Shown here one piece after another: positions 22,807 to 40,173 of a DNA stretch of 64,000 nucleotides; the stretch's first letter is position 1, and each line of letters starts with the position of its first letter. A program made the translations under genes and the position numbers. The notes below the pieces were generated by a model, which worked only from the letters and a program-made list of their open reading frames with translations, had not been told where the DNA came from and ran no database searches. Source of the DNA: Siphonodentalium dalli (lineage: Eukaryota > Mollusca > Scaphopoda > Gadilida > Siphonodentaliidae); NCBI GenBank assembly GCA_032622095.1, contig CP136061.1:22508991-22572990 (forward strand). The letters are read 5' to 3'.

Positions 22807-22812
22807 GGTGTA
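22807..22812. other. Left target-site duplication GGTGTA
   Basis: These six bases abut the first AG of the left TIR and are identical to the six bases after the right TIR. Confidence 0.9.
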
Positions 22813-23661: not shown

Positions 23662-24135
23662 TTAATTCAACAGCAAATTTGCTTTTCTGTATAATCGACC
23701 ATAGTGCTTTCCAAACCATCGAACTATTGTTCTGTCATTCTTGAAGAAATCCCGAGAATTGAATAATATTTTCATCCTCTTTCCTTTCATCATGTGGTGG
23801 AGTGCGAATATACAATATAATCCACACACATTTGTCGCACGATGTTGATATCGTGTTGTATTCATAGTCCATGCTGATGAGTTCCTTTTTATGAATGGTA
23901 ACATATATCGTCTCGGTGGTGGTAGTCCAAATGAGTCGAAGTATACAGCTGATCTTCCCTTGAATAACATCAATGTCCAGTGTTCTCCTGGCTGATCCGA
24001 TGAGTGCGTGTTCACAATATATGCTTGAATATGCTGTGGTTTCTTCTCTGGTAACAGATCTCTAGCACAAACATGTGTGTTAAGTTTACACAACCAGGAA
24101 TTGTCCAGAATATATTGAAGTTCAGCTGTCTGCAT
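23662..24135 (-). CDS. PRO: Adenain-type cysteine protease (maturation protease)
   Basis: The protein has 157 residues. It carries the catalytic order of the adenovirus/Ulp1-like C5 family: His52 in GEHW, Asp67 in VYFDSFG, and Gln97 and Cys104 in YQHRATNVCGLYC. In this family the enzyme processes capsid and core precursors inside the particle. The start overlaps the upstream gene's end by 14 nt, as expected in this compact block. The length is typical of Polinton proteases and shorter than adenain (about 204). All key residues are present. It is the last gene before the left TIR. Confidence 0.92.
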   Translation of the reverse strand: MQTAELQYILDNSWLCKLNTHVCARDLLPEKKPQHIQAYIVNTHSSDQPGEHWTLMLFKGRSAVYFDSFGLPPPRRYMLPFIKRNSSAWTMNTTRYQHRATNVCGLYCIFALHHMMKGKRMKILFNSRDFFKNDRTIVRWFGKHYGRLYRKANLLLN

Positions 24136-24580
24136 CGTTGTAATTCTCTTTGACTCGCTGTGACCACATCAGAGTCCACTCTGCATCGAATTTTTTGCGG
24201 TTGAGCTCCAAACTGTTTCTCAGATGATCCCACATAAGGTATGCTTCGAACTTCTCCTTGCAGTGTGGGTTTAACTCCATCAGCTTCGGGAACCATCTTT
24301 CCATAACATTGTATATGTCAATTTTAATCAGCGCTAAGTCGATAAACTGGTTTGTCCAATCATCAGTTGTAGAGAACAAACACAGAACATGTTCACGTTG
24401 ACTAGGATGTTCTATTTTACATCCTTCACAGTTTGCTGACACTTCCTTGCGAATAATTTCTTGTAGTTCTTCAATCGTAGCGTTGTTGAGTGTGTCCAAG
24501 ATCAGTTTTAATCTCGGAGCAACGTGTTGTGAACGTCGGTATTCTTCATAGTAGTTCCATAGCTGTGTTGTGAACTCCAT
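24122..24580 (-). CDS. Polinton protein of unknown function with Cys/His cluster
   Basis: A 152-residue acidic to neutral protein, probably mainly helical. A cluster Cys51-x2-Cys54-x3-His58...His64-x2-Cys67 within CEGCKIEHPSQREHVLC looks like a small zinc site. I believe similar C-x2-C...HPSQ...H...C segments occur in other Polinton or adintovirus proteins, but I cannot name a function. The gene starts 1 nt after the major capsid stop region and overlaps the protease start, so it is probably co-expressed with the virion genes. Confidence 0.75.
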   Translation of the reverse strand: MEFTTQLWNYYEEYRRSQHVAPRLKLILDTLNNATIEELQEIIRKEVSANCEGCKIEHPSQREHVLCLFSTTDDWTNQFIDLALIKIDIYNVMERWFPKLMELNPHCKEKFEAYLMWDHLRNSLELNRKKFDAEWTLMWSQRVKENYNDADS

Positions 24581-24581
24581 C

Positions 24582-25886: not shown

Positions 25887-25888
25887 GA

Positions 25889-26263
25889 TTAATCAAAAAT
25901 ATCAAGAGCTCGACTGCTAGGATGATTTTTCGACTGACTTTTTCGGCGTTTGACAGCTGAATGATTCATTTTTGAAGTCGCTACTCTTTTTCTAGGTTTT
26001 TTTCTCGAGTTCAAAATTTGATTTTTAGCTTGTGTGCCAAAAGATTTTAAAGCTTTTTTACCTTCAGACATCAACGCTTCTTTCGGACTTTTACCTTGAT
26101 TAATAATTTCATCTGCAACACCAAAAGTGTGTTTTTTCGCAAGTTGTAAAGCTGTCCGACCAAGCGGTTTTAGAAATGGTATAGCAGATCTCATAACTGA
26201 TTTGAAAATTGAACCAATACCATTACCATATTGCCGTGGTACGCCTCTATACACGGGGAACAT
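25889..26263 (-). CDS. Adenovirus pX-like basic core/membrane-active protein
   Basis: A 124-residue protein. The N-terminus has 'YRGVPRQYGNGIGSIFKS' followed by 'AIPFLKPLG', a glycine-rich then amphipathic segment typical of adenoviral pX/mu-like and adintoviral X proteins. The middle is Lys/Ala-rich, and the C-terminal third is very basic (RKKPRKRVA, KRRKSQSK) and suits DNA binding or nuclear targeting. It sits 2 nt from the major capsid gene and 5 nt from the minor capsid gene. A role in condensing DNA or in membrane penetration is inference from the family. Confidence 0.75.
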   Translation of the reverse strand: MFPVYRGVPRQYGNGIGSIFKSVMRSAIPFLKPLGRTALQLAKKHTFGVADEIINQGKSPKEALMSEGKKALKSFGTQAKNQILNSRKKPRKRVATSKMNHSAVKRRKSQSKNHPSSRALDIFD

Positions 26264-26268
26264 TGTTT

Positions 26269-27120
26269 TTAGAACTCCTCTCGTTTTCTGAAATGTAGCT
26301 TCACCAAAGACTTACCACCGATAAACTGAATTGATTTTCCTGTGTCGCCACTTATATTTACACTAATTTTGTCAAAGTATGACTTTGAAACTGGAACATA
26401 ATGTAAATTTAAAAATTCATGTTTTACATGTAATCCGTCGATATCTCTTTTACTTCTGAAAGAAACAACTCGTAAAATTTGTACTTCAACATTTCCAACA
26501 AATGTGTAATCGGCAATATCAGAATAAACAAACATTAGATTATGACCAACATTCAAATCTACACCAAACGGAAATCTATTATTTGAATAAAAATCTTCAG
26601 AAGCGTTTTCAGTTTTGTAACCCAACTTGTGCAAAAGACATTGTGGTAATTCAATTCCTAGTTTTGTGTTACTTAAACTCTTGCGAATAATTTTCACACG
26701 TTTTGTACCTTTTGAGTACCCGATGTGAAATCCGTATTCGTTTTGCATTGCTTCTCCAAGTGTTTCATCAATTACATCTTGCATTGTATCAACTAAATCT
26801 GTCGCAGAGGTATACGAACCATTTTGTATCTGTATTTCAAGTGCATGAACGCCATCAGGTCTCTTAAATATCTTTTCTTCAAAACGATTTTGAAGAACAG
26901 ACAGTAATATTGCATCAGTTGTAATCAAATTGAATTTACACGAATCCCCTGTAACATTGTATGTTTCTGAAGGTGTTATCAGTTCGGCTAATGCAACTTC
27001 CCATTTTTCTTTATCAATTTGAACTGGTTTTGGTAATTGTACAGTAAAACAACATTGAGTATTGTTTGGATACATTACCATCGAACTGTCGCTCGGAATT
27101 GTAATGTAGAAAGGATTCAT
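26269..27120 (-). CDS. Minor capsid protein (single jelly-roll, penton-like)
   Basis: A 283-residue protein starting MNPFYITIPSDSSMVMYPNN. It then has the strongly conserved 'KWEVALAEL' around Trp40, which is widespread in Polinton/adintovirus minor capsid proteins. Its expected role is the pentameric vertex of the icosahedral particle. Its stop overlaps the start region of the membrane protein by a few bases on the far side. No truncation is evident. Confidence 0.85.
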   Translation of the reverse strand: MNPFYITIPSDSSMVMYPNNTQCCFTVQLPKPVQIDKEKWEVALAELITPSETYNVTGDSCKFNLITTDAILLSVLQNRFEEKIFKRPDGVHALEIQIQNGSYTSATDLVDTMQDVIDETLGEAMQNEYGFHIGYSKGTKRVKIIRKSLSNTKLGIELPQCLLHKLGYKTENASEDFYSNNRFPFGVDLNVGHNLMFVYSDIADYTFVGNVEVQILRVVSFRSKRDIDGLHVKHEFLNLHYVPVSKSYFDKISVNISGDTGKSIQFIGGKSLVKLHFRKREEF

Positions 27121-27380
27121 ACTTTCAAAATTTCTGCCGACTGATTTTTCAAATATTTCAAACGCGGTGTTGGTAAAATGTACCCCAAAGAACTACTGAG
27201 TAAAATTAACCACAGTTCGTTATTTTCACTTTGTAAACTTAAATGAACAATTGCTGTAGCGATTATACCAACAATTATAATAATTTGTGTAAAATATGTT
27301 ACTTGATTTTTTGCAATTTTTTCTCCACAGATTTGAAATTGTGATGGAGCATCGAGACCAACTGAACCATTTTGAGACAT
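27117..27380 (-). CDS. Small two-helix membrane protein
   Basis: I choose the Met at 27380 (MSQNGSVGLDAPS...) because the upstream extension overlaps the integrase end. This gives 87 residues. One hydrophobic helix spans about residues 29-50 (FTQIIIIVGIIATAIV) and a second spans about 57-70, followed by the 'GYILPTPRLK' motif. It is probably a virion or host-membrane protein. Similar small hydrophobic genes next to the capsid block are common in this group. The function is unknown. Confidence 0.7.
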   Translation of the reverse strand: MSQNGSVGLDAPSQFQICGEKIAKNQVTYFTQIIIIVGIIATAIVHLSLQSENNELWLILLSSSLGYILPTPRLKYLKNQSAEILKV

Positions 27381-27390
27381 GTTAAAAGTT

Positions 27391-28485
27391 TTATACCAAA
27401 TTTGTGGCAGGTATCCAACTGTCAAATTTTTTAGGATAACCAGCCCAATGAACTTTAATTTCTCTAACTGATTTACCAGCAACTTTTCTTGAACGTTTAC
27501 CAACAACTGATTCAATTTCGTAAACTTTATTATCTTTTATATGTTGAATTTCTTTACCATAAAATGATCCTGCGATGTTTTCACCATCTAAATCTACTAA
27601 TTTGTAAGTTAATGGTGTACTTTTACAAACTCTACTAATTTTGAAAATTTCTTTTGTCCAATTTGGAAGATATCCTTTATCAAAAGTTCTCTTTGTTTTA
27701 TTTATTCTAACAAAATCTCCAACTTTCAACATCTTATCTTTTTTCGTTTTTAACTTTCCATAAAGATTTCTGGAAACTTCAATTTCATTTTCTCGAGTTA
27801 CTAAAACTGGTGCCATCTTAATACTTCTATGAAAACTTTTGTTGTAAGAATTCACAAAATCGTGCAAAACATCAACGTATTTCAAAGTTTGATTATGTGT
27901 AAAATATTTCCACATCTTTGTTTTCAATGTCCGTTGAAAACGTTCAACTATACTTGCTTTTGTCTCTGGATTCTCTGTTGTGAAAAAATGAATTTTCTTA
28001 GATTTCAAAAATTGTAAAAATAATTTATTTTTGAATTCTGAACCTTTGTCAGATTGAAATGAAGCTGGTTTTCGTTTTGATGATTTTAGAATTTTCTGAA
28101 ATGTTTTAACTAAAGTTTTACCAGTTTTATCTTTAATTTTTTCAACCCATGCAAATTTTGAGAACACATCAATAACACAAAGTAAATATCTGTAATTGTC
28201 ATTGTGCTTTTGCAAAGTTTGCAAATCTGCCAGATCAGCTTGCCACTGAATATCAATTCCTGCAACAATAGTTTTACGTCTGCGAAATTTCCGAACAATT
28301 GGTTTGTGCAAAGTATATGTTTTTTGCCATTGTAACCATTTTTTAACATCTGAAAGTTTAATTTTGTTATTTGTTTCTTTTGCATTTTTAAAAAGTTGAT
28401 TTGCTCCACTGAAACCACCAACTTCTTTTGGATTGTAGTAAATTTCAGTTAGAAGTTTGTCAAATTTTATGTAAGTGAGGACCAT
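27391..28485 (-). CDS. INT: Retrovirus-like integrase with C-terminal chromodomain
   Basis: A 364-residue protein. The N-terminal 'YYNPKEVGGFSG' and 'TYTLHKP' segments are followed by the RVE core: Asp84 in WQADLADLQ, Asp146 in FQSDKGSEF and Glu181 in IVERFQRTLK, the DDE triad. Residues about 328-364 (VHWAGYPKKFDSWIP) form a chromodomain. The enzyme inserts the linear element at 6-bp staggered sites, matching the GGTGTA duplication, and the chromodomain may guide it to modified histones. It overlaps the upstream gene by 19 nt. All catalytic residues are present. Confidence 0.95.
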   Translation of the reverse strand: MVLTYIKFDKLLTEIYYNPKEVGGFSGANQLFKNAKETNNKIKLSDVKKWLQWQKTYTLHKPIVRKFRRRKTIVAGIDIQWQADLADLQTLQKHNDNYRYLLCVIDVFSKFAWVEKIKDKTGKTLVKTFQKILKSSKRKPASFQSDKGSEFKNKLFLQFLKSKKIHFFTTENPETKASIVERFQRTLKTKMWKYFTHNQTLKYVDVLHDFVNSYNKSFHRSIKMAPVLVTRENEIEVSRNLYGKLKTKKDKMLKVGDFVRINKTKRTFDKGYLPNWTKEIFKISRVCKSTPLTYKLVDLDGENIAGSFYGKEIQHIKDNKVYEIESVVGKRSRKVAGKSVREIKVHWAGYPKKFDSWIPATNLV

Positions 28486-29174
28486 CCTTTCAAAATAGTT
28501 TTTCTGGTTTCTGGTGTTAAAATATCAACTGAACGTTTTCTTGACTTGCCACTGATAGGAGTTGCATGTGGTGTATGAAACTCATCACCAGTGTGACCTT
28601 TTAAATGTCTTTGCATCCACAGCCATCGATCCCTGTTACCTACATAATCTTGTGGTATATTAAGTTCCCCCAATCCACGTAGGAATGTTTCATAACCAAC
28701 TGGGTTAAAACCTTTTCGGTGACGAACAACATCGTTTATCAAATCAATTATATTTGATCCAGTAACTGTTTCTGTTCCATAAATTAATTGTCCACGATCA
28801 TCCCATCTAAGTTTAGGATTAGTTGACAACAATGATAAAATTTGTTGTGCTTTACCACGAAATTTAGATGGCACACTTTCCAATATATGGTCACTCATTT
28901 TCCCAAAGTTTTCAGATAACTTTTGTTCAGGTAATCTGAATTTTGAATTTAAAGATTTTTGTGAAGTTTTCAATTTGTACAAATTTTCTCCAAATAACTG
29001 TGACTTTTCTGATTCAGAAATATTTTTATCATAAACTGATTTCAATTCTTTGTAAGAATCTGAAACATTTGAAATTGCAGGATCAGGAGGTAATTGAGGT
29101 TTATTCATTTCTGACATTTCCCATTGTTTGAAATCTTCCAACATTCTGAATGGTACAATAACCATTTTCTTCAT
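28467..29174 (-). CDS. Polinton-conserved protein of unknown function
   Basis: A 235-residue protein. The N-terminus reads 'FRMLEDFKQWE' followed by 'PQLPPDPAIS'. The centre has a Leu/Gln helix, and a later segment 'DLINDVVRHRKGFNPVGYE' precedes 'NIPQDYVGNRDRW'. I recall this overall pattern in other metazoan Polinton or adintovirus genomes, where it is uncharacterised. It overlaps INT by 19 nt. There is no signal peptide or membrane helix. The C-terminus is basic (KSRKRSVD). Its position next to the integrase could mean a DNA-related role, but that is a guess. Confidence 0.75.
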   Translation of the reverse strand: MKKMVIVPFRMLEDFKQWEMSEMNKPQLPPDPAISNVSDSYKELKSVYDKNISESEKSQLFGENLYKLKTSQKSLNSKFRLPEQKLSENFGKMSDHILESVPSKFRGKAQQILSLLSTNPKLRWDDRGQLIYGTETVTGSNIIDLINDVVRHRKGFNPVGYETFLRGLGELNIPQDYVGNRDRWLWMQRHLKGHTGDEFHTPHATPISGKSRKRSVDILTPETRKTILKGWSSLT

Positions 29175-29194
29175 ATTTATTTGAGATTTAGCTT

Positions 29195-29563
29195 TTACAA
29201 AATATTTTTAACAACTGCACCTAATGTTTTGCTAATCAATGGAGCAAGAAATAATAATGGTAAAAAGCCACCTTTTTGATTCAAAATTTTCTTCTTTTGT
29301 TGCAAAGGTTTGTTCTTGTCTGCAAGATATCTGATATGTTTACGCTTCGAATGTAACTTGCGGTTCTGAGCTTCATTCAGTTTTACATTACCTTTTAAAA
29401 GATTTTGACAACATTCTGAAATGCAATCCATCACTTGTTTCGGAGCTTCGTTGATCATTTTCTTTTTATATGCAGATGGAACTTTACTCATTGCAACAAT
29501 CAACTCACCATATTTTTTTATCAGCGGTGCTTTCCGGCTCTTAGTTTTTGAAGGCATCTTCAC
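29195..29563 (-). CDS. Basic protein with GG-hydrophobic motif (pVI-like candidate)
   Basis: A 122-residue, strongly basic protein. The second half reads 'LADKNKPLQQKKKILNQKGG' and then a hydrophobic tail 'FLPLLFLAPLISKTLGAVV'. The layout (basic part, GG, hydrophobic/amphipathic helix) resembles adenoviral precursors that the maturation protease cuts at GG. The same motif recurs in the next gene (29614-30201), so the two are probably paralogues. A membrane-lytic or scaffold role is inference. Confidence 0.7.
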   Translation of the reverse strand: MKMPSKTKSRKAPLIKKYGELIVAMSKVPSAYKKKMINEAPKQVMDCISECCQNLLKGNVKLNEAQNRKLHSKRKHIRYLADKNKPLQQKKKILNQKGGFLPLLFLAPLISKTLGAVVKNIL

Positions 29564-29613
29564 AGTCTAAGTAGTTGTCTCAAAATGAGCAGAAAAATTA
29601 TATGTTTCATCTT

Positions 29614-30201
29614 TTATCTTTTCGGATTGAACCATTCTAAAGCTTCGAATGCAGATTTCGATGCATCAGACAACGGCATAAATTTTGAAAATTCAAGATC
29701 AATAACTGGTTTTTTTTGTAACGGTTGATGTTGAGGGTTCTGCTGAGAAGGTATAGGTGTAAATTTAGAATGTTGATTTTGTTGAGTTTGCATCGGTGTA
29801 AACTTTGAATGATTTAGAGAAAGCTTTGTTTTACGTTTAGATTCTTTTTGATTACCTCTTTGTTGTGTTTGCTTCCGAGTAATCTTTGAACGTTTTGGAG
29901 AAACCTTTGATTTACTTTTAGATTGTCTACCAGTTTGTTCAAATGAATTTTTCAAAAGACTTCTAATTAAAACTCCTCCAAGAAACCCACTACCACCTCG
30001 TTGTAAAATTAATTTGCGTTTTGTTTCCATATCAGTTGATCGATCAGAGATTTTTTTAAGAACATTTTTATTTCTCTGAAAAAACTTTTTTGTCTGTGAT
30101 GGTAATTTCCAATCATTTTCAAGAAATAATTCAGCTGCAAAAGTGAAGAAATTTATAATTTGTGACAGTTCATCACGACTAAACATCTCGGTGGACGACA
30201 T
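29614..30201 (-). CDS. Basic Ser/Gln/Lys-rich protein with GG motif
   Basis: I choose Met at 30201 (MSSTEMFSRDELSQ) because the longer form overlaps the ATPase gene, giving 195 residues. An N-terminal helix is followed by 'KRKLILQRGGSGFLGGVLI', which parallels LNQKGGFLPLL of the neighbour. Then comes a low-complexity basic region with repeats of 'SK(F/I)T(P/R)xQTQQ' and a conserved-looking end 'FEALEWFNPKR'. It is probably a virion core or minor structural protein. Confidence 0.65.
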   Translation of the reverse strand: MSSTEMFSRDELSQIINFFTFAAELFLENDWKLPSQTKKFFQRNKNVLKKISDRSTDMETKRKLILQRGGSGFLGGVLIRSLLKNSFEQTGRQSKSKSKVSPKRSKITRKQTQQRGNQKESKRKTKLSLNHSKFTPMQTQQNQHSKFTPIPSQQNPQHQPLQKKPVIDLEFSKFMPLSDASKSAFEALEWFNPKR

Positions 30202-30235
30202 GGTTCTAAAATGAAAAAAATAACAACAACTGAAT

Positions 30236-30886
30236 TTATACTTTTGAATATATGACAGGACCTCGGTCATTAGCTGTCAACCATTTATGGAAAATATCAG
30301 TTCTAATTCGCAAATAATTTTCTGTTCTAGGATGAAAATCTACTAAAATATATCCATGATTTATTGAAGTTGCATCTTCGTATGCTTGTTTCAAATGATT
30401 GGTTTGCATTTGATGAGCCAAAACTTTTATTTGATTTTTATCTCGAACGCTTTGAAATAAAACCATGTAGTGTGCATTCAAACTTATAGTTCTGCTACTT
30501 TTTGATTTTTGGAACATGTTTTGAGTAATGTAAATTATTGAAGCATTTCGATGATGACCTTTTCTAGTAAACCAAAGCATTATTTTGTCTTCATCTTGTT
30601 CCCCCATCATGTCATCGAAAACAACAAGATGAGGAAATGATTTATCTGATACAATTTCCTCATCATCGTCTGGAATACCATCGATAAACTTAACGTTATC
30701 AATTTCTTTTATACGATTGTATGTGTCTTGCCATTCTTTGTAACACCAAACTATTTTCTTTGGTGGTGTTTGGAATAAATCGTGTTTAAATTCAATAACT
30801 TTTTTAACAAATTCTGTTTTACCTGATCCACTAGGTCCGCTGATAAAGAAATTACACGGATGTTGGAAAAGTAAAGATTCTTCCAT
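30236..30886 (-). CDS. ATP: FtsK/HerA-type (A32-like) genome-packaging ATPase
   Basis: A 216-residue protein. It has Walker A GPSGSGKT at residues 17-24, Walker B 'HLVVFDDMM' with Asp91-Asp92, and a later 'IIYITQNMF' sensor-like segment. Members pump the genome into preformed capsids. The length and motif spacing are normal for the Polinton/adintovirus branch. The gene ends 35 nt before the next start. Confidence 0.93.
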   Translation of the reverse strand: MEESLLFQHPCNFFISGPSGSGKTEFVKKVIEFKHDLFQTPPKKIVWCYKEWQDTYNRIKEIDNVKFIDGIPDDDEEIVSDKSFPHLVVFDDMMGEQDEDKIMLWFTRKGHHRNASIIYITQNMFQKSKSSRTISLNAHYMVLFQSVRDKNQIKVLAHQMQTNHLKQAYEDATSINHGYILVDFHPRTENYLRIRTDIFHKWLTANDRGPVIYSKV

Positions 30887-30919
30887 GTTGTCACTTTGAT
30901 GTCTAATCAGAGAGTGAAC

Positions 30920-31570
30920 TTAACGACGTGTGAATTTAGTTTTTAAACCGAAATCTCCAAAGCTGTAAATATTTCCATACATTTCAATAATCCAATCATC
31001 ATAGTCTTCTATTCTTCTGTGCTTTGTTCTGTAAATAAAAAAATCATCCCCCAAAATGTTTTTAATTTTTGCATATGTTGACATTTTTTTTGTTAACAAA
31101 TACCCATAGATCCTAGGAACTGATTCAAAAGTTCCCCCATCAAGAGGTAAATGATCATCATACTTTGTATAATGAATATAGTCATGTTCATCAAAAGTTC
31201 CTAAATCTATATCTAAATGGTGTTGATCAGCACCAAATGTCCAAAAATCAGATATTTTTTCAATGAGAAAAAATGTTTTGAATTTAATAAATGATTCAAT
31301 ATATTTTTGAGAGAAATGAGAAGATATACTTGACTCAAGATAGGCCAATCTCTGTAAACATTCGCCGACATCACAGCATCGTAGTATTGCTTTCTTTTCT
31401 CTTTCAAACCAGACTTCTTGTAATTCCTTCTTTATCTCTGGAATAAGCGTTGACTGTGCCACCAAATATCCATAAATCTTCTCAGCAATTTCTGGAGGTA
31501 CTACTCCTGCCAACATCTTGACATGAAATGACTCAACATCTCCATCCGTATGGGTATGTATGAATACCAT
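30920..31570 (-). CDS. Unknown Polinton protein with duplicated IYGYL motif
   Basis: The frame is open from 31624, but Met codons at 31570 and 31516 are also possible. I use 31570; 31516 would avoid all overlap with the PolB end at 31533. The product (about 198-234 residues) has a Leu/Glu-rich helical part and an acidic, aromatic C-terminal half. 'IYGYLVAQ' and 'IYGYLLTKKM' are repeated about 115 residues apart, suggesting an internal duplication. There are no catalytic motifs that I recognise. Its location between PolB and the ATPase does not settle its role. Confidence 0.55.
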   Translation of the reverse strand: MVFIHTHTDGDVESFHVKMLAGVVPPEIAEKIYGYLVAQSTLIPEIKKELQEVWFEREKKAILRCCDVGECLQRLAYLESSISSHFSQKYIESFIKFKTFFLIEKISDFWTFGADQHHLDIDLGTFDEHDYIHYTKYDDHLPLDGGTFESVPRIYGYLLTKKMSTYAKIKNILGDDFFIYRTKHRRIEDYDDWIIEMYGNIYSFGDFGLKTKFTRR

Positions 31571-34500
31571 TGACGAGTTTTCGTTTTGTGTACACCGATC
31601 TGAAAGTTTTGGTTTGACACTCACTAATCAATTGATGGTTCTTTTGTCTTTTAATTCTGGAAGGATACTCAACAACAGTTTTGAAATTTTCACGATCATT
31701 AACACATTGTACCATTGTTTCAAAATTAACTTTTTGACTTGTGCTGTAATCAAGAGTGATACCTTTTACCTTACATTTGGTGTATCTTACCCCATCTTTG
31801 ATGTATTCATATCCGTAGTTCTTTGGCCCAAGTCCAACAAATTTGACAATCTTTGCATCTGGATGTTCGTCGCTCCATTTCCCCAATCTTCCTTCGATAG
31901 TTTTGATGTTCTTCTTTGATGGATCACTGACATACATACAGCTGTCTGTATCAAAATACAGCACTCTATCTCCAAGTTTTTCTAAAACTTTATACAATTG
32001 TAATCTTGCATACGCTGTAACAAAAGAAGCAACAACAACATTTGCTGAATGATGAGGTTCAATATTATCTAAGATGTCAACATAATTTACCAGAATGAAT
32101 TTGTCACCATCAAGAAGTGTAACATTTTGAACAATTATATTGTTACTAGTAAGCAATTCAAAATAACGTGATGGTTTATCCACATACTCTGTTTTTGACA
32201 TAAGATTTCTTTGTGCATTCTTACCCCATATACAATTAATCATAATTTTAGATATTTGACGTTTTCCTGGATTCTTCTCGATGTTCTCCAAATTTATACC
32301 CTCAGCTGCATAATAATCCTGTACAAACTTTTGTTTCTGTTCTTCTGTCTCAACACCAAATGGATAACCACTACATTCCTGTTTGATCTTTAGATGTTTA
32401 TCGATATAGGATTTGTATATTTCATCTGTCCAATCTGTCCAATGCCAAATTTGGTACACATCAAGTATTTTGTAGCCAACATCCATTGCTTTGAATAATT
32501 CTGGCGTGGTCCACACTCCGGTTATAGCTCGATCTTCTTCTGAATGGTTACATGCCTCGTTCTCATTGATGGCACAAGTGTTGCACAGAGTAAAAACCAT
32601 TTTCTTGTTACAATGAATCGGTAGAACTGGAATATACAATTTCGATGATGGTAAAATTGTACATTTAACAAGCCCCGCATAGTCTCTAATGTGTTCTTGA
32701 TCGATCTGCTCTTGGCTCAAAATTTCTGGATGTCCAACAGGGTAGAATTTATATTTGTTGCAAAATGGATACAACGAACACACATCGATGAACTTGATTT
32801 CTTTTGTGGAATCTTGATCAATTTCCTCGTACAATTTGATGGCATTTGTACGTCCACCAAACAATGCTTCTCTTGGCAAAATAGGGTCTCGATGTTTGTA
32901 GAAAGATTCCATTTGTTGTTTGAATTTCACATCCGATTTCATTCTTTCGTCGATCTGATGCTCCCAAATTGATTCAACTCTGTAACCAAGACTTTCCAGC
33001 TCATCTTTCTTCTGTTGGGTTCTTGTATATAATTCTTCCATGGTGAGCATCGTATAGGGATTCTTGTATTGTCTGTTGTTGTAACATTTTGGACATCCAT
33101 GAAACAGACATCCATTCATCTCAAAAACTGTTCTTGTGGCTTCCTCATATCCATCGACGTAGTGTCCACCAATCTTGATTTCTCCTCCATTCAAAGCATG
33201 CTTGATTGTTATCATACGTGACAATGATATATGTTGAAGCCAACGTATCGCTTTCATGGAATAGTTTTTAGCACATGGGTATCCACCATCTGGAATGATT
33301 CCAATTGTTTTCTCTGGCATTGAATTCTTCCTCCATGCCAAATTGCAAACTTGTGCCAATGTTATTGACTCAATGAACGGGTCAATCTGTTCTGTTTCCA
33401 ATATGTATTTCCTGAATTTTCCACATCCACGGCGAAGAATATCCACGTCTGATTTGCAGTACTTCTCTATCTCTTCTTGGAAGTTGAATATCGCATAATT
33501 TTCTATTTTCTCATTGTACCATTCAAAGAATTTCTCTCGATTTTCCACGCTCATCATATCTGGTTTGTAGTAATCACAAGCCAAGTAAGGTCCAATGTAA
33601 TTTTGAAACTTTGGTGAATTCGCCCAATGTGGAAAGTGTCCTTTTGCCATCTCATTCAGCTGAAAAGTTTGTGGAAATTTTGAAAGCGGCATCATCAGAA
33701 AACTCAGAGAATCAATAACTTTCACGCTGTTGCATTTTAAACTGAGAATTTTGTTTCCATTCATGATCAGTTCTGGTTTATGAATTCCACTTTGTATGAG
33801 TGCTTGAAGTAGAAACTGTGCATCGTATCCCTGAGCATTATGTGCTATTGCAACACATCCTTTGTGATCTTGATGGAATAACCAGTTTGTGAAGTCTGTT
33901 AAAACATTGTCACCCTTGAATACAAATTCTCTGGAATCCGGTCCGCATGTTTCACATTTTTCTTCGATTGGTTTGCACATGCAATCTCCACAAGCGGTAT
34001 GTGCAACACAGAAGTTTGGAATATGAACACCTGTGTCTTGTCTGCATTCAAAGTCAAAGAATACATATGGAATCTTTGCAGGTTTCTTTTCCGGTGATTC
34101 ATATTTTGGAATGTAGCACCTGTGATCTGCTTCAACGATTTCTTTGCAATGTTTGCATTTCTTCAACCCCGCACATATATGTCTGTTTGATTTATTGATG
34201 AGAAATTCTTCATCACAAATGTTGCATAGTTGAACCAAATCACATATTTTTCTTTTCTGTTTTCCTTCCGTCTTCAAATGGTTGTCGAAACAAGATTTAC
34301 TTCTGAATGATCGTCGACACGTTCTACACTTCACCAAATTTGTGAAATTACACTGTGTCAATGACCAGCATGCACAAACAAATCTGCATCGATGATCGCC
34401 ACGACTTTTGAATCCAATGTCACAGAATTCGCAGTAGTAGCTGGTGCCTAGAAATCCTTTGATTGATGTTATGGTGTCGAAGTGATTGTTGTTGTAGTAG

Positions 34501-35606
34501 ATGTGTACACATTTGCTCTCCGAACACATTTCTGCAGGTTCAAATAGAAATCCAGCGCCAGCAAATTCATTGTGAATTTTCACAACATATTCTGGATACA
34601 ATATTTCTTGAATCTTGTGGAACTCATTGATACTGCAAACTGTATCGTGTGGAATACCAGCACGGTTGAGTAGATTTTTTGCTGCATCTGTTTGTGCTGT
34701 GTATATTGATTGTCTTATTCTTTTCCATTTCTTTGACCAGCACGCAGATCCATCACTATCTGCCTTACACATTCCGACGACAATAGATCTTGCCATACAC
34801 ATAACATCATCAGCATTTTCAATCCGGACAATACTTCTTTTCACTTTTGTAAGCTTGTTCTTGTCTGCAAATGGTCCATAATGTAGTGAGTGTCGTGTAC
34901 CACCTTCCGGAATATCTGTAACGAAGATTTCGAAATTGAGTGCACCGTCATGAATTGTAAAGTCTGCATTTGATTGAACCACATTTTGAATATTATCCAT
35001 GAGTGTCTCACCATTCAATTCACTGGCTTTTGTGAATGGAATGAAAATGTTCATATCAAGTCCTGGATGATTTATCGTAACTCTGATTCTTGTCTTCTCA
35101 TTTGCTGAACATTTCTGTTTCAATTCTTCTGTCAACTTCTCAAATATCTCTGGAATGTTTTCGATTGGATCTGTAAATTTCTCGAATTTCACACCAAATT
35201 GTCGTGATGCTGATTTAAATTTTCTGGAAAATTTCTCCGAGTTCAGCTCCAATTTGAAATATTTTGTTGGATTGAACACAACACGCTCTCTAGCCAGACT
35301 TCTCTTTCTCTTCCCACCAATTTCTCTATTCTGTCTTCGACCGCGTCCAATCTGACCATCACTAGAACTTTCTTCACTTTCGCCTCCATTAGTTTCCATA
35401 TCGCTCTCTTCACTTTCTGCCTCATCAGTTTCCATATCGCTCTCTTCACTTTCTGCCTCATCAGTTTCCATATCGCTCTCTTCACTTTCTGCCTCATCAG
35501 TTTCCATTTCGCTCTCTTCAATAACTGCAGGCCTTGGTCTTTTTCTAACAATATCTTCTTCGCTGGCGGAGTCGTCTGAAACAGGTCTTTTGATTCTCTT
35601 AAACAT
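31533..35606 (-). CDS. POLB: Protein-primed family B DNA polymerase
   Basis: A 1357-residue protein. The N-terminus (1-100) has a nuclear-localisation-like RKRPRP and four 12-residue acidic repeats (ESDMETDEAESE). A cysteine/histidine-rich zinc-finger cluster lies at about 392-497. The exonuclease has DFE at 518-520, Asn590...Asp595 and YxxxD at 716-720. The polymerase has motif A (Asp941, SLYP), motif B (Lys1120-x3-Asn1124-x3-Gly1128), DTDS at 1219-1222 and a KxY motif at 1262-1264. This is the Polinton replicase that uses a terminal protein primer. A segment at 819-885 resembles Vsr-type nucleases (see findings). Transcription starts from the palindromic promoter at 35511-35921. Confidence 0.97.
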   Translation of the reverse strand: MFKRIKRPVSDDSASEEDIVRKRPRPAVIEESEMETDEAESEESDMETDEAESEESDMETDEAESEESDMETNGGESEESSSDGQIGRGRRQNREIGGKRKRSLARERVVFNPTKYFKLELNSEKFSRKFKSASRQFGVKFEKFTDPIENIPEIFEKLTEELKQKCSANEKTRIRVTINHPGLDMNIFIPFTKASELNGETLMDNIQNVVQSNADFTIHDGALNFEIFVTDIPEGGTRHSLHYGPFADKNKLTKVKRSIVRIENADDVMCMARSIVVGMCKADSDGSACWSKKWKRIRQSIYTAQTDAAKNLLNRAGIPHDTVCSINEFHKIQEILYPEYVVKIHNEFAGAGFLFEPAEMCSESKCVHIYYNNNHFDTITSIKGFLGTSYYCEFCDIGFKSRGDHRCRFVCACWSLTQCNFTNLVKCRTCRRSFRSKSCFDNHLKTEGKQKRKICDLVQLCNICDEEFLINKSNRHICAGLKKCKHCKEIVEADHRCYIPKYESPEKKPAKIPYVFFDFECRQDTGVHIPNFCVAHTACGDCMCKPIEEKCETCGPDSREFVFKGDNVLTDFTNWLFHQDHKGCVAIAHNAQGYDAQFLLQALIQSGIHKPELIMNGNKILSLKCNSVKVIDSLSFLMMPLSKFPQTFQLNEMAKGHFPHWANSPKFQNYIGPYLACDYYKPDMMSVENREKFFEWYNEKIENYAIFNFQEEIEKYCKSDVDILRRGCGKFRKYILETEQIDPFIESITLAQVCNLAWRKNSMPEKTIGIIPDGGYPCAKNYSMKAIRWLQHISLSRMITIKHALNGGEIKIGGHYVDGYEEATRTVFEMNGCLFHGCPKCYNNRQYKNPYTMLTMEELYTRTQQKKDELESLGYRVESIWEHQIDERMKSDVKFKQQMESFYKHRDPILPREALFGGRTNAIKLYEEIDQDSTKEIKFIDVCSLYPFCNKYKFYPVGHPEILSQEQIDQEHIRDYAGLVKCTILPSSKLYIPVLPIHCNKKMVFTLCNTCAINENEACNHSEEDRAITGVWTTPELFKAMDVGYKILDVYQIWHWTDWTDEIYKSYIDKHLKIKQECSGYPFGVETEEQKQKFVQDYYAAEGINLENIEKNPGKRQISKIMINCIWGKNAQRNLMSKTEYVDKPSRYFELLTSNNIIVQNVTLLDGDKFILVNYVDILDNIEPHHSANVVVASFVTAYARLQLYKVLEKLGDRVLYFDTDSCMYVSDPSKKNIKTIEGRLGKWSDEHPDAKIVKFVGLGPKNYGYEYIKDGVRYTKCKVKGITLDYSTSQKVNFETMVQCVNDRENFKTVVEYPSRIKRQKNHQLISECQTKTFRSVYTKRKLVNGIHTYPYGWRC

Positions 35607-35697
35607 TTTTGTCTTGAGTTTTTGTCAGCACAAAATATTGCGACTGGCTTCTTCGGAGTTGAAGTGTAAAGTGTATAATTACACAATTTTACACTTG

Positions 35698-35705
35698 CTT
35701 TTATA
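35698..35705 (-). promoter_or_regulatory. TATA box of PolB
   Basis: TATAAAAG on the minus strand, about 92 nt upstream of the PolB ATG. It is in the mirror position of the plus-strand box at 35726-35733. Confidence 0.75.
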
Positions 35706-35725
35706 GCATTTTTCATCGTGACTGC

Positions 35726-35733
35726 TATAAAAG
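35726..35733 (+). promoter_or_regulatory. TATA box of the zinc-knuckle gene
   Basis: TATAAAAG on the plus strand, about 92 nt upstream of the ATG at 35826. It is inherited with the rest of the PolB promoter by the inverted duplication. Confidence 0.75.
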
Positions 35734-35825
35734 CAGGTGTTAAAATTGTGTAATTATACACTTTACACTTCAACTCCGAAGAAGCCAGTCGCAATATTTT
35801 TTGCTGACAAAAACTCAAGACAAAA

Positions 35826-36401
35826 ATGTTTAAGAGAATCAAAAGACCTGTTTCAGACGACTCCGCCAGCGAAGAAGATATTGTTAGAAAAAGACCAAGG
35901 CCTGCAGTTATTGAAGAGAGCTATATTGAGCTGCATAAAGAAGAATCTACACTACTACAGACTAGAAAAATTCAAGATAATCTTGTCGAATTGAGACAGA
36001 TCTCTACTGATTTGTTTAAATTTTGTAACAAAATGCAATGGCAAGAGAAAAAAGAGAAAAACAAAGCTGATAAAAATTGGAAACCACCATATGGTTACTG
36101 TTACAAATGCGGACAAGACTCCCATTGGTCCTTCCAATGTAAAACAGATTTCGACGACAAAAAAAATGTGAAAACTATACAAAAAAGTCTACAAGCAGTA
36201 ACAATACAAGAACAAAATGCAGTTATCAAAACTGAAGAGATGTCTACAACATCAGATGTTTTCAAACAACCCCGACCTGTTGATCCTACGAATGATTCAC
36301 AGAACAAATCTGAAGATAAGCATCCAGATTTTGAAAATTCCAAGAAAACTTCCAAGAAAAAGAAGCTGAGACAATTCTACATTCCAAAAACAGATAAATG
36401 A
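35826..36401 (+). CDS. Zinc-knuckle protein with a PolB-derived N-terminus
   Basis: A 191-residue protein. The first 32 residues are identical to PolB (start MFKRIKRPVS, basic RKRPRP) and the identity stops where the PolB acidic repeats begin. A helical segment follows, then a CCHC zinc knuckle (Cys92-x2-Cys95-x4-His100-x4-Cys105 in CYKCGQDSHWSFQC), and then a charged, Lys/Ser-rich tail. Zinc knuckles bind single-stranded nucleic acid; the shared head may carry it to the nucleus. It is followed by AATAAA at about 36434 and a GT-rich tract, so it probably has a normal poly(A) end, unlike its right-hand neighbours. Confidence 0.85.
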   Translation: MFKRIKRPVSDDSASEEDIVRKRPRPAVIEESYIELHKEESTLLQTRKIQDNLVELRQISTDLFKFCNKMQWQEKKEKNKADKNWKPPYGYCYKCGQDSHWSFQCKTDFDDKKNVKTIQKSLQAVTIQEQNAVIKTEEMSTTSDVFKQPRPVDPTNDSQNKSEDKHPDFENSKKTSKKKKLRQFYIPKTDK

Positions 36402-36433
36402 ATCGATACAAACATTTGAAAATTATATTGTGA

Positions 36434-36439
36434 ATAAAT
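36434..36439 (+). terminator. Poly(A) signal of the zinc-knuckle gene
   Basis: AATAAA about 33 nt past the stop, followed by the GT-rich 'cgtgttttgttttgtttttt'. The same block recurs at about 37896 as part of the duplicated cassette. Confidence 0.6.
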
Positions 36440-36511
36440 TATGAATTGAACAATCGTGTTTTGTTTTGTTTTTTCAGCTATGAAAGAGTAACCTTTTTGG
36501 GGAATGTGGGT

Positions 36512-36527
36512 GGCCCTGAAAAGGGCC
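36512..36527 (-). terminator. Histone-type 3' stem-loop of the 36546-36896 gene
   Basis: Read on the minus strand: GGCCCTTTTCAGGGCC, a 6-bp stem with TTTC loop, 18 nt after the stop. The flank after it is ACCCACATTCCCC, and then 'AAAAAGGTTACTC'. The stem, loop and ACCCA flank match the metazoan replication-dependent histone mRNA signal bound by SLBP. Confidence 0.85.
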
Positions 36528-36545
36528 GTTTTTCTTTTCCAGAAT

Positions 36546-36896
36546 TCATAAAAATTCTGCCAAATCAGGATATATCCCGTTGGGATTAATTGTCACAGAC
36601 CAAGTAGGGTTTGATCTGTGCGCCGCAGCAGCCTGAGCGAAGCTGTCAATTGCTGCATTGCACAGATCTTTCTTCGAGATCTGTGACAAGATCTCCCCGA
36701 GATCAAGATTGCTTGGTTCTTGATCACATACTTCAGCCGATGGTCGTCGCCGAGCCAGAAAATCTGTTAACATCTGTTTCTGCACCACCTTTTGTTCAGG
36801 AGAATCCTGCCATTTCCTATAGGTTCTGATTTTCGTCTCCTCTGACGAATCTCTCTTCCTCCATAGCTTCTTGAAAAATTTCTTTAGAGACGGCAT
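36546..36896 (-). CDS. Unknown small protein, basic amphipathic N-terminus
   Basis: A 116-residue protein. The N-terminus MPSLKKFFKKLWRKR is a strongly basic amphipathic helix. A charged middle follows, and then an Ala-rich segment (AIDSFAQAAAAH). I recognise no family. A TATA-like TATAAAAATA lies at 36936-36929, about 35-40 nt upstream of the ATG, in the divergent promoter shared with the gene at 37512. It ends at a histone-type stem-loop. It shows no similarity to the protein at the equivalent place in the second cassette (38007-38495). Confidence 0.75.
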   Translation of the reverse strand: MPSLKKFFKKLWRKRDSSEETKIRTYRKWQDSPEQKVVQKQMLTDFLARRRPSAEVCDQEPSNLDLGEILSQISKKDLCNAAIDSFAQAAAAHRSNPTWSVTINPNGIYPDLAEFL

Positions 36897-36922
36897 AATG
36901 AATGAAGTTCACTGAAAAAGTG

Positions 36923-37475
36923 AAAATATTTTTATACATTTGACACGGGCGGTAGAGAAATCACATGTCGCATTGACGTTAAAATTGACAAATGTTTCCT
37001 GGCGTTGTGTTTTTTCAGAGACGGATCAGCATTCATATTTTTCTTGATCATTATTGCATAGCGATCAAACAAATGTTTTTTATTTCGTTAGATCATTATC
37101 TATTATATGGTACACATGATTGATATATTTGTTACCTCGTTAGGAAAATATGGAATGTTTTTCTAGTTTTGTTTTTGGAGATGTACATATTTTATACATA
37201 AAACTGAACACAAGAAAACATACTGAACATTTTTCTTCATCATTACAATCGATAACTTTACTTGGTCATCGTTTATGAACGAAGATGAATTCATATGTTA
37301 AAACATCTTAATTAATTGCATATACTATCATGAATTTAATCTATAACATATCGAAATAGTGAAAACTACAGATAATGCACTGTAAAGAAACACAACGTCA
37401 GGGAGCATTTGTCATTTTAACGTCAATGCGACATGTGCTTTCTCTACCGCCCGCGCAATCGTAATATATGTTCAA
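36923..37475. promoter_or_regulatory. Divergent promoter cassette A
   Basis: The 553-bp non-coding region between the minus gene (ATG 36896) and the plus gene (ATG 37512). The ends are an inverted repeat of about 77 bp (36942-37018 and 37380-37456). Each arm carries 'cattgacgttaaaattgaca' or its complement plus 'tctctaccgcccg', next to TATA-like boxes (36929-36936 minus, about 37463-37469 plus). The centre is AT-rich. The whole cassette is repeated at 38533-39085 at roughly 98 % identity. Confidence 0.85.
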
Positions 37476-37511
37476 ACACGGCCGTGAACAATTTTTATTC
37501 TGCATTCAAAG

Positions 37512-37700
37512 ATGTCCGAAATCCCCGAACCGTTGATGTCTATACTAAGAGGAACGATAGGGCTATCACCCCAGATAATGCGGGCCGGACACGCAAAAGA
37601 AGTAACCGCCAGTGCAAAACTGGTTATGCAAATATGCAAAAAACAACAGCGTTGGAACAAAAGCAAAAGTCTCAAAAGAAAATCGTGGCGTGAACTTTGA
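37512..37700 (+). CDS. Unknown 62-residue basic protein
   Basis: The ATG at 37512 (MSEIPEPLMSILRGTIG) has the context CAAAG-ATG, which is identical at the equivalent genes (39118 and 38495). The upstream in-frame ATG at 37433 lies inside the promoter arm, so I reject it. The C-terminal third is very basic (KKQQRWNKSKSLKRKSW). No family is recognised. Two histone-type stem-loops follow at 13 and 41 nt after the stop. Confidence 0.7.
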   Translation: MSEIPEPLMSILRGTIGLSPQIMRAGHAKEVTASAKLVMQICKKQQRWNKSKSLKRKSWREL

Positions 37701-37713
37701 TGCCATACAAAAC

Positions 37714-37729
37714 GGCCCTTTTCAGGGCC
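37714..37729 (+). terminator. Histone-type 3' stem-loop (first of two)
   Basis: GGCCCTTTTCAGGGCC, 13 nt after the stop of the 62-residue gene, with A-rich flanks (AAAAC before, AAAAACAAAAAC after). Confidence 0.8.
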
Positions 37730-37741
37730 AAAAACAAAAAC

Positions 37742-37757
37742 GGTCCTTTTCAGGACC
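37742..37757 (+). terminator. Histone-type 3' stem-loop (second, with compensatory change)
   Basis: GGTCCTTTTCAGGACC: the third base pair is T-A instead of C-G, so pairing is kept. It is followed by AACCAA and then 'tcaaaaagaaaaacttt', which resembles a histone downstream (U7) element. Confidence 0.82.
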
Positions 37758-37895
37758 AACCAATTTTTTCAAAAAGAAAAACTTTTAGCATTGCTTAAGA
37801 ACTAATAATGTTCTTTGTACCCTATGTTTTGTTTTGAAAAAATCACGCCACGAATAATTTAAAACAAAATATACTTGCAAATATTTGTTGTTGAA

Positions 37896-37901
37896 TAAAA
37901 T
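37896..37901 (+). terminator. Downstream poly(A) signal in the duplicated block
   Basis: AATAAA followed by 'attgaacaatcgtg' and a T-rich tract, the same block as at about 36434. It could act as a fallback poly(A) site for the plus gene after the stem-loops. Confidence 0.4.
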
Positions 37902-37968
37902 ATAAATTGAACAATCGTGTTTTTGATTTTTTCAGCAATGAAAGAGTAACCTTTTGGGAAATGTGTGT

Positions 37969-37984
37969 GGCCCTGAAAAGGGCC
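37969..37984 (-). terminator. Histone-type 3' stem-loop of the 38007-38495 gene
   Basis: On the minus strand GGCCCTTTTCAGGGCC, 22 nt after the stop, followed by ACACACATTTCCC and 'AAAAGGTTACTC'. The position and flanks mirror 36512-36527. Confidence 0.85.
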
Positions 37985-38006
37985 GTTTTAAAATTATCAT
38001 CTGACT

Positions 38007-38495
38007 TTAACATCGTTTTGTGTTTTTCTTATATCTTGACATATCTTTCCCATGAGAACCAATAGCTTTTGCGAATTCATCACTTTTCTCTGTATCTTTA
38101 GATTCTTTACAAGGAAGACGAAATCTGACTTTTGTCTCAGTAGAAGGCTTCATGATACTTTTAGGTTCTTTTTCTTTCGCAGCCAATATTTTTTCTTTTT
38201 TGATCTGTTTCTGTTCTTTCGATTTCTGAACATCATGAACCCTGATTGGTATATCTATCTCTTCTGCAACGAAACGAAGATTCACTTTTACTTCTTGATG
38301 CGTTACTTGTGTTTTCACGTCAATATCCCTGCGAAGACATCTCAGTTCATCTAAAATCGCTTTTAAAATGAGTGTATCTCCACCTATAGTCATTGTCGTA
38401 TTAGCTTGGCCTGTTGACTGTGGTGCCGCATATGTATTCTGTACAACAGGATTACTGTATATCTCACTCTGAAGAAATTCTGTTAACGGATCCAT
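38007..38495 (-). CDS. Unknown Lys-rich protein with KVRF motif
   Basis: The ATG at 38495 (MDPLTEFLQ, context CAAAG-ATG) is chosen. The upstream Met at 38549 lies on the TATA box (38539-38546). This gives 162 residues. A Thr/Asn/Gln-rich start is followed by a helical Leu segment (ILDELRCLRRDI) and a long charged Lys/Glu region. 'ETKVRFRLP' contains a KVxF motif of the kind that docks protein phosphatase 1. The tail is basic. No family is recognised, and it is not similar to the gene in the same place of cassette A. Confidence 0.75.
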   Translation of the reverse strand: MDPLTEFLQSEIYSNPVVQNTYAAPQSTGQANTTMTIGGDTLILKAILDELRCLRRDIDVKTQVTHQEVKVNLRFVAEEIDIPIRVHDVQKSKEQKQIKKEKILAAKEKEPKSIMKPSTETKVRFRLPCKESKDTEKSDEFAKAIGSHGKDMSRYKKNTKRC

Positions 38496-38532
38496 CTTTG
38501 ATAGCAATGCAATGTAACGTTGATCAAATTCT

Positions 38533-39085
38533 AAAATATTTTTATACATTTGACACGGGCGTCAATGAAATCACATGTCGCATTGACGTTAAAATTGACA
38601 AATGTTTCCTGGCATTGTGTTTTTTCAGAGACGGATCAGCATTCATATTTTTCTTGATCATTATTGCATAGCGATCAAACAAATGTTTTTTATTTCGTTA
38701 GATCATTATCTATTATTTGGTACACATGATTGATATATTTGTTACCTCGTTAGGAAAATATGGAATGTTTTTCTAGTTTTGTTTTTGGAGATGTACATAT
38801 TTTATACATAAAACTGAACACAAGAAAACATACTGAACATTTTTCTTCATCATTACAATTGATAACTTTACTTGGTCATCGTTTATGAACGAAGATGAAT
38901 TCATATGTTAAAATATCTTAATTAATTGCATATACTATCATGAATTTAATCTATATCATATCGAAATGGTGAAACTAACAGATAATGCACTGAAAAGAAA
39001 CACAACGTCAGGGAGCATTTGTCATTTTAACGTCAAAGTATTATGTGCTTTCTCTACCGCCCGCACAATCGTAATATATGTTCAA
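38533..39085. promoter_or_regulatory. Divergent promoter cassette B
   Basis: Direct repeat of cassette A (36923-37475), same length and only scattered differences in the central 370 bp. Inverted-repeat arms lie at 38552-38628 and 38990-39066. Changes are concentrated in the arms ('gggcgtcaatgaaat' against 'gggcggtagagaaat', and 'caaagtatta' against 'caatgcgaca'). It drives 38007-38495 (minus) and 39118-39585 (plus). Confidence 0.85.
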
Positions 39086-39117
39086 GACGGATCTTCAGAC
39101 TTATTCTACATTCAAAG

Positions 39118-39585
39118 ATGACTGCTGTAAACATAACAGATCTTGACGAGATAATGGTACAGGGGGTATACTGTAAAGCAGTGTGCGGCGGCGAAGAAAT
39201 ATCTCTGTTTTGGAGGGCACTCAGCGTTGCGGTTTACGGGACGACCGATGGATGGATGGTTCTGAGAGATGCGGCAGTTGACCTGTACTACGCAGAGAGT
39301 GACGAACTTGGTGCGTCGGCACAAGATTTACGGCGCACACCACTTTTGGCTGAATCAAGATTGATGGTTGAATTAGCGGCGACTGTTATACAGCGACCTA
39401 TCGTCATGTTTGATGCTACCAGAGGCGGCTACAAATCAACACCAAGATTCAAGTCATCAATAACTCTAGTGTGGATCCCACACGTTTGCCACGAGCATTA
39501 TTGTGAATGCGAAATATGGATGAGGCGAGGAGACAAATCAATTGAAGTTTTGGCGAACAAAGAAGTTCAATGTGGCGGATTCTAA
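39118..39585 (+). CDS. OTU-like protein with substituted catalytic cysteine
   Basis: The ATG at 39118 (context CAAAG-ATG) gives 155 residues. The pattern of an OTU deubiquitinase can be followed: 'GEEISLFWRALSVAVYG' for the usual DGxCLFRAxS-type motif, then 'LRDAAVDLYY', 'MVELAATVIQRPIVMFD', and finally 'HEHYCECEI' with His127 for the HY-x-S/x-V end. The nucleophile position reads Ser29 (SLF instead of CLF) and the preceding Asp-Gly are Glu-Glu, so it is probably not a cysteine protease. It may bind ubiquitin or be a decoy. The OTU relation is my inference. It ends 19 nt before a histone-type stem-loop. Confidence 0.7.
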   Translation: MTAVNITDLDEIMVQGVYCKAVCGGEEISLFWRALSVAVYGTTDGWMVLRDAAVDLYYAESDELGASAQDLRRTPLLAESRLMVELAATVIQRPIVMFDATRGGYKSTPRFKSSITLVWIPHVCHEHYCECEIWMRRGDKSIEVLANKEVQCGGF

Positions 39586-39604
39586 ACTATAACAAAAATA
39601 AAAC

Positions 39605-39620
39605 GGCCCTTTTCAGGGCC
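39605..39620 (+). terminator. Histone-type 3' stem-loop of the OTU-like gene
   Basis: GGCCCTTTTCAGGGCC with AATAAAAC directly before and ACCAAA after. 'cgaaaagaaaaactc' starts about 12 nt downstream as a candidate U7-binding purine element, almost the same as after 37757. Confidence 0.85.
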
Positions 39621-39700
39621 ACCAAATATTCGAAAAGAAAAACTCTTGATTGCTAATTGATATTTTCCAAAGTGAGATTTTCCTTTTGAAAAAAAATAAT

Positions 39701-40167
39701 TCTAAGTCCATTTTCATTTTTTCCGATCAGAAATATCACATCAATGACAGGAATATCTATCCTCAGGGGGGAACTATGGCCCAGTACCCATCAGTGGGGG
39801 GCACTATGGCCCAGTACCCCCCAGTGGGGCACTATGGCCCAGTACCCCCCAGTGGGGGGCACTATGGCCCAGTACCCCCCAGTGGGGGGCACTATGGCCC
39901 AGTATCGAATACTGGACCATAGATCGTCCAGTATTCGATACTGGGCCATAGTGCCCCCACTGGGGGGGCACTATGGCCCAGTATCGAATACTGGACGATC
40001 TATGGTCCAGTATTCGATACTGGGCCATAGTGCCCCCCACTGGGGGGTACTGGGCCATAGTGCCCCCCACTGGGGGGTACTGGGCCATAGTGCCCCCCAC
40101 TGGGGGGTACTGGGCCATAGTGCCCCCCACTGGGGGGTACTGGGCCATAGTGCCCCCCATTACTACT
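39701..40167. repeat. Right terminal inverted repeat of the Polinton
   Basis: Reverse complement of 22813-23281 with only small length differences (467 versus 469 bp), mostly in G/C runs and array units. It starts at 'tctaagtccattttc' and ends ...TACTACT. Confidence 0.93.
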
Positions 40168-40173
40168 GGTGTA
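40168..40173. other. Right target-site duplication GGTGTA
   Basis: Matches 22807-22812 exactly, directly after the terminal CT of the element. Confidence 0.9.

Follow-up and report, generated by a model that had tools for sequence, protein, structure and literature searches.

We analysed a 64-kb stretch of DNA from the scaphopod mollusc Siphonodentalium dalli (64,000 nucleotides (nt) of contig CP136061.1, hereafter the window), which contains an intact-looking Polinton (Maverick) element, and found that four small genes in the right arm of this element, here called B, C, D and E, are followed by the stem-loop signal of replication-dependent histone mRNAs. The signals, their placement behind the stop codons and their match to a curated RNA model are established. 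From the sequence we infer that B to E are transcribed and that their transcripts are bound by SLBP, cleaved, left without poly(A) and coupled to S phase, and we give SLBP- and U7-dependent cleavage of the histone type, with the presumed S-phase coupling, a probability of roughly 0.8. To our knowledge, descriptions of the SLBP/U7 3′ end generally treat it as the private signal of replication-dependent histone mRNAs.

A sequence-only reading of the window had noticed a hairpin with a 6-bp stem and a TTTC loop, lying in sense 13–22 nt past the stop codons of four right-arm genes, and this description is accurate: GGCCCTTTTCAGGGCC occurs four times in the 64 kb, at 36512–36527 (−) behind gene B, 37714–37729 (+) behind gene C, 37969–37984 (−) behind gene D and 39605–39620 (+) behind gene E. 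That account found these four copies and overlooked a fifth hairpin, as well as the duplication of the 3′ cassettes and promoters described below. The fifth hairpin, GGTCCTTTTCAGGACC at 37742–37757 (+), has two mismatches and stands in tandem with the first one behind gene C. It carries a compensatory exchange of C-G to T-A, with both sides of one stem pair altered, which is the pattern expected from selection on an RNA stem. Pairing is complete in each of the five stems, and all of them lie in sense, 18 nt (B), 13 and 41 nt (C), 22 nt (D) and 19 nt (E) past the stop. When up to three mismatches are allowed, five matches are obtained; 100 dinucleotide shuffles averaged 0.18 matches and never gave more than 3. 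The 3′ ends of genes C and E are also exceptional in folding energy relative to shuffled sequences (z of −4.51 and −3.63).

To describe placement, we took 17 open reading frames (ORFs) of the element as genes, namely 12 in the left arm and A, B, C, D and E; left out were ORFs antisense to or inside larger ones (e.g. 31560–31919, 35243–35716 and 38052–38354), those in the terminal inverted repeats (TIRs) and most of those shorter than 100 amino acids (aa). Sense positions no more than 50 nt past the stops of these 17 ORFs make up 2.5% of the element (867/34,710). Under full independence of the copies, an assumption that holds only in part, the chance of the observed placement would be p^4, or about 4e-7. 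Among the other 13 genes (the 12 of the left arm and A), none has GGYYCTTTTCAGRRCC within 300 nt past its stop.

Four of the five hairpins reach the gathering score of 34 of the Rfam family Histone3 (RF00032). Specifically, the hairpin of gene B scores 42.6 bits (E-value 2.9e-9), that of E 41.8 (6e-9), that of D 40.1 (2.5e-8) and the second one of C 37.1 (3.4e-7); at 22.2 bits, the first C hairpin stays under the cut-off. When the 64 kb were searched with all Rfam families, nothing besides these four matches reached its own gathering score. Under lax settings, some microRNA models match the palindromic TIRs of the element and a palindrome at 35636–35797 with E-values as low as 2e-7, at 45–51 bits against cut-offs of 95–200; our argument therefore rests on the gathering cut-off and not on the E-value. 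The proposal that the hairpins are histone 3′ signals is supported by these four matches, by their sense orientation and nearness to the stops, and by the compensatory pair.

The sequences around the stems point the same way. AAAAC stands on the 5′ side of all five stems. Histone-like 3′ flanks had been proposed at 36512 and 39620 and are indeed found there, as ACCC past the B stem and ACCA past the E stem; the remaining flanks are ACAC (D), AACC (second C stem) and AAAA (first C stem). Purine-rich stretches had likewise been placed at the position of the U7 element, and we find an AAAGR box behind every hairpin except the first, inner one of gene C. The boxes lie within presumed cleavage regions at 36487–36511 (−) for gene B (AAAGG, starting 16 nt past the stem), 37758–37783 (+) for gene C (AAAGA, 16 nt past the second stem), 37945–37968 (−) for gene D (AAAGG, 15 nt) and 39621–39646 (+) for gene E (AAAGA, 14 nt). 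Loop orientation, flanks, model score and placement led us to reject the idea that the hairpins arose by chance or are terminators of a general kind.

The genes that carry the signal share a duplicated framework. The presumed divergent promoter of genes B and C (36923–37475) has a second copy between genes D and E (38533–39085) with 96.6% identity, and the ends of the B/C promoter are mutually inverted (36946–37018 against 37453–37380, 90.7%). At the 3′ ends, the cassette at 36416–36532 is 86.7% identical to 37875–37989, and 37729–37795 shows 82% similarity to 39593–39654. The proteins of B and D, and those of C and E, have no likeness that BLASTP detects; blastn with words of 7 returns nothing for C against E, and for genes B and D it gives no more than matches of 10–15 bases. 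Within the 86.7% duplicate of B and D, the hairpin and its flanks are identical at 23/23 positions and the stretch from stop to hairpin aligns poorly. This arrangement points to one cassette retained around changing, unrelated cargo genes, not to four separate inventions.

Upstream of the coding regions, CATTCA lies 8–9 nt before the ATG of genes B, C and E (in 36897–36986 (−), 37422–37511 (+) and 39028–39117 (+), respectively), and TATA-like boxes lie at −40 to −47 upstream of the same three genes. The pattern is absent from the upstream regions of PolB, gene A and gene D (the last taken from its first ATG). CATTCA before an ATG recalls the cap motif of invertebrate histone genes, and the resemblance of the combined CATTCA and TATA-like boxes to invertebrate histone promoters is only suggestive.

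Several observations weigh against a histone-type 3′ end, or against its exclusive use. Gene C has an AATAAA 194 nt past its stop, inside a segment common with the end of gene A, and gene E has one 12 nt past its stop, in the A-rich flank directly before the stem. Because AATAAA is present at both, polyadenylated or mixed 3′ ends are possible for C and E, and an exclusive histone route appears weakened for these two genes, while B and D seem to have no obvious alternative: the first AATAAA or ATTAAA follows gene B only after 2350 nt and gene D after 508 nt. This lack is itself weak evidence, since 5/12 left-arm ORFs are also without AATAAA or ATTAAA within 300 nt. Genes B and D have 3′ ends whose folding energies do not stand out from those of shuffled sequences (z of −0.66 and −1.61), and the AAAGR boxes sit in A-rich sequence. 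Because promoters and 3′ cassettes are duplicated, the hairpin sites are not independent origins, and the number of independent events is smaller than the number of hairpins. The signals are, as far as the compared sequences indicate, known from the right arm of one element only.

We weighed these observations against three other explanations. The hairpins might be decoys that bind SLBP, or elements of stability or translation, on mRNAs that are polyadenylated further downstream. The AATAAA motifs 194 nt past the stop of C and 12 nt past that of E would suit such a role, as would the tandem hairpins behind C; a U7-type box, present after 4/5 hairpins, would be needless for a decoy, and genes B and D have no AATAAA or ATTAAA within 500 nt. 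We regard this explanation as unlikely. A relic is far less probable still: a host histone 3′ end would have been captured once, copied along with duplicated segments and left functionless. Duplication of both 3′ cassettes and promoters within the right arm is what a relic would predict, whereas five perfectly paired stems, one of them through a compensatory change, and a hairpin identical with its flanks at all 23 positions between B and D, next to a poorly aligned stretch from stop to hairpin, speak against it. The TIRs, 98.7% identical, and the 17 open reading frames, all still open, count against a relic as well, and both also fit a young copy that has not yet decayed.

A virus-type terminator, at which the transcript would be cut and polyadenylated as at the palindromes of mimivirus, deserves equally little credence. 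Polintons are distant kin of virophages, which lends this idea some plausibility. Mimivirus mRNAs end at hairpins that are cut by a viral RNase III-like enzyme, and excerpts of the source describe the palindromes as being without sequence conservation (PMC4402537), whereas here loop and flanks match the histone signal. Moreover, hairpins stand behind just 4/17 genes, and a Pfam scan, which covered 10/17 of the element's proteins, gave no match to RNase III or poly(A) polymerase.

Thus, we favour SLBP/U7 processing of the B to E transcripts. The SLBP/U7/CPSF73 pathway belongs to general histone biology, and its use by the element would proceed as follows. B, C, D and E form two divergent gene pairs, and a 3′ cassette of the histone type closes every one of these genes: an A-rich flank comes first, then a 6-bp stem with a UUUC loop, followed by a presumed cleavage stretch and by a box rich in purines. 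RNA polymerase II would produce the pre-mRNA in the host nucleus, host SLBP would grip the hairpin, the U7 small nuclear ribonucleoprotein would pair with the AAAGR box, and the nuclease CPSF73 would cut a few nt past the stem. The mature mRNA would end in the hairpin, without a poly(A) tail, and would be made, translated and stable mainly during DNA replication of the cell. This timing would benefit an element that brings its own DNA polymerase, as nucleotides and replication factors are abundant then. The rest of the Polinton, which is without the hairpin, presumably uses ordinary poly(A) sites. We lean, by a narrow margin of confidence, towards a broader interpretation, in which the Polinton would have assembled an expression cassette like that of histone genes, with a common divergent promoter, a short gene lacking introns and a 3′ end of the SLBP/U7 type, and would load it with interchangeable accessory genes, one of them with a possible RB-binding LxCxE motif. 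Expression of these genes would take place in S phase, or serve it, and would do without poly(A).

If this is true, a novel means by which DNA viruses or transposons tie genes to S phase of the host and bypass the poly(A) pathway would come to light, with a DNA virus-like element running one class of its genes on the histone mRNA cycle. Such elements could be found with the hairpin as a simple sequence tag, and the element would serve as a natural experiment on which features of the histone signal suffice for cell-cycle control. RNA sequencing of poly(A)-selected libraries would miss such mRNAs, which bears on the judgement that Polintons in animal genomes are silent.

The four genes and their neighbour A were examined for coding content. 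Gene B (36546–36896, −) encodes 116 aa. Gene C (37512–37700, +) encodes 62 aa and was chosen over an overlapping 86-aa ORF (37433–37693) because of its placement in the sequence-only reading and the ATTCAAAGATG start that it has in common with gene E. Gene D (38007–38549, −) encodes 180 aa in its longest ORF, or possibly 162 aa from a second ATG at 38495, and gene E (39118–39585, +) encodes 155 aa. In Pfam at an E-value of 1, none of the proteins B, C, D and E matches a histone; B, C and E have no match at all, and the sole match of D is ASL_C at 0.1, far under the cut-off. A sequence search of the Protein Data Bank (PDB) gave no match for gene B. Against 5.8 billion proteins, in a search that requires common 5-residue words and for which D and E were the queries, no homologue was found at an E-value of 1e-3 for gene E (37 candidates) or for gene D when translated from the second ATG (25 candidates). 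Gene E had resembled an OTU protease by eye, a likeness unsupported by Pfam or by the PDB sequence search, in which its best match was ribosomal protein L3 at 0.056, taken as chance.

The C-terminal part of gene D contains LPCKE (38103–38117, −), an instance of the LxCxE motif. Such motifs are used by viral RB binders. The motif arises by chance in 1.65% of shuffles of gene D and, when the five proteins are shuffled, in 8.3% of cases; it is suggestive of RB binding by the gene D product, with chance not excluded.

Gene A (35826–36401, +) encodes a zinc-knuckle-like protein of 191 aa and is without a histone hairpin; an AATAAA lies 32 nt past its stop. Its match to zf-CCHC_3 (1e-4, 22.6 bits) is under the curated Pfam cut-off of 27. 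An inverted duplication of 96% identity (35511–35921) spans the presumed divergent promoter of PolB and gene A, and the two proteins begin with identical residues (MFKRIKRPVSDDSASEED...).

The Polinton that carries these genes spans 17,355 bp (22813–40167) with host DNA on both sides. It is bounded by TIRs at 22813–23289 and 39693–40167, which are 98.7% identical over 479 columns, and by a 6-bp target duplication, GGTGTA, at 22807–22812 and 40168–40173. The TIRs consist mostly of units of about 30 bp (GGGGGGCACTATGGCCCAGTACCCCCCAGT) at 22821–23216 and 39766–40159, and because these units stand both directly and inverted, each TIR is a large palindrome. In the left arm, DNA polymerase B (31533–35606, −; 1357 aa) matches Pfam DNA_pol_B_2 at 2.2e-38, a retroviral-type integrase with a chromodomain (27391–28485, −) matches rve at 1.3e-12 and Chromo at 1.7e-05, and a packaging ATPase of the A32 type (30236–30886, −) matches Pox_A32 at 1.3e-08, with 35.1 bits against a cut-off of 22.8. 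A 434-aa protein (24582–25886, −) is without a Pfam match and has 1004 homologues; its position within Polinton gene sets leads us to take it as a candidate capsid protein. Among the matches listed, 10/11 with a named organism are from bivalves, and the closest organism-named relative among the 120 listed of the 1004 is from Mercenaria, at 63%. The ORF at 23662–24135 resembles an adenovirus-type protease by eye alone. In the flanks, stop-to-stop frames lying wholly outside the element are at most 154 aa (left) and 138 aa (right), and several copies of one repeat were noticed in translation in the host flank (3929–4297, 8005–8310, 8414–8786 and 16300–16623).

Relatives of the element were sought in several collections. 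Scans of IMG/VR with PolB, the capsid candidate (18-row alignment), the integrase and the ATPase (two-row alignments) gave no relative confirmed by tblastn. In the same database, GGCYCTTTTCAGRGCCA occurs in 7 contigs and GGYYCTTTTMAGRRCCACC in 1, and 0/8 of these loci have a Histone3 match at the gathering score. Polinton-like pieces were observed in metagenome-assembled genomes (MAGs) of bacteria, two (L008 and L009) assigned to an Escarpia laminata endosymbiont and one (L010) to Breoghania; they are presumably animal contamination of the genome records. Histone3 does not reach its gathering score in any of the three pieces, and no right-arm genes were recognised in them by eye, B to E not being aligned. 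Because L008 starts inside the polymerase ORF and right-arm genes were unrecognised, this negative result is neutral at best. Together, these eleven loci, of which eight were chosen for a hairpin-like string, comprise 107,914 bases free of Histone3 matches at the gathering score.

The literature agrees with the sequence-only reading, which knew of no account of such signals in Polintons or adintoviruses: none was seen in PubMed Central (PMC) full text, judged mostly from titles and the starts of abstracts among the matches listed, with subscription journals mostly outside this collection. No paper there contains both 'histone stem-loop' and 'Polinton', or both 'adintoviruses' and 'LXCXE', and the titles and abstract starts of the matches listed likewise showed no account of histone hairpins behind the genes of other viruses. 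In a paper on animal virus gene transfer, 'stem-loop' occurs 0 times in the main text, and excerpts name histone-like proteins in adomaviruses (PMC11071296).

With other Polintons (Mavericks) and adintoviruses, the element has in common PolB, an rve integrase, an A32-type ATPase, a capsid candidate, long TIRs and a 6-bp target duplication; it differs in its right arm, which has two divergent gene pairs with histone-type hairpin ends. As with the mimivirus 3′ hairpin, a hairpin directly past the gene would mark the end of the transcript; in mimivirus, according to excerpts, cleavage falls within an unconserved hairpin and poly(A) is added (PMC4402537). A further counterpart is the 3′ end of metazoan replication-dependent histone mRNAs (RF00032), which shares the 6-bp stem, the UUUC loop, the A-rich 5′ flank, the ACC-like 3′ flank, the purine-rich box downstream and the small distance from the stop. 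Among molluscs, excerpts on the bivalve Lucina pectinata report that every histone mRNA found there has a palindrome close to its stop, and that a purine-rich element lies near some (PMC6210712). That likeness is drawn from the description, with no letters compared, and the Lucina genes code for histones. In contrast to metazoan histone mRNAs, the signal here belongs to a mobile, virus-like element and follows genes that do not code for histones, one of which ends in tandem hairpins.

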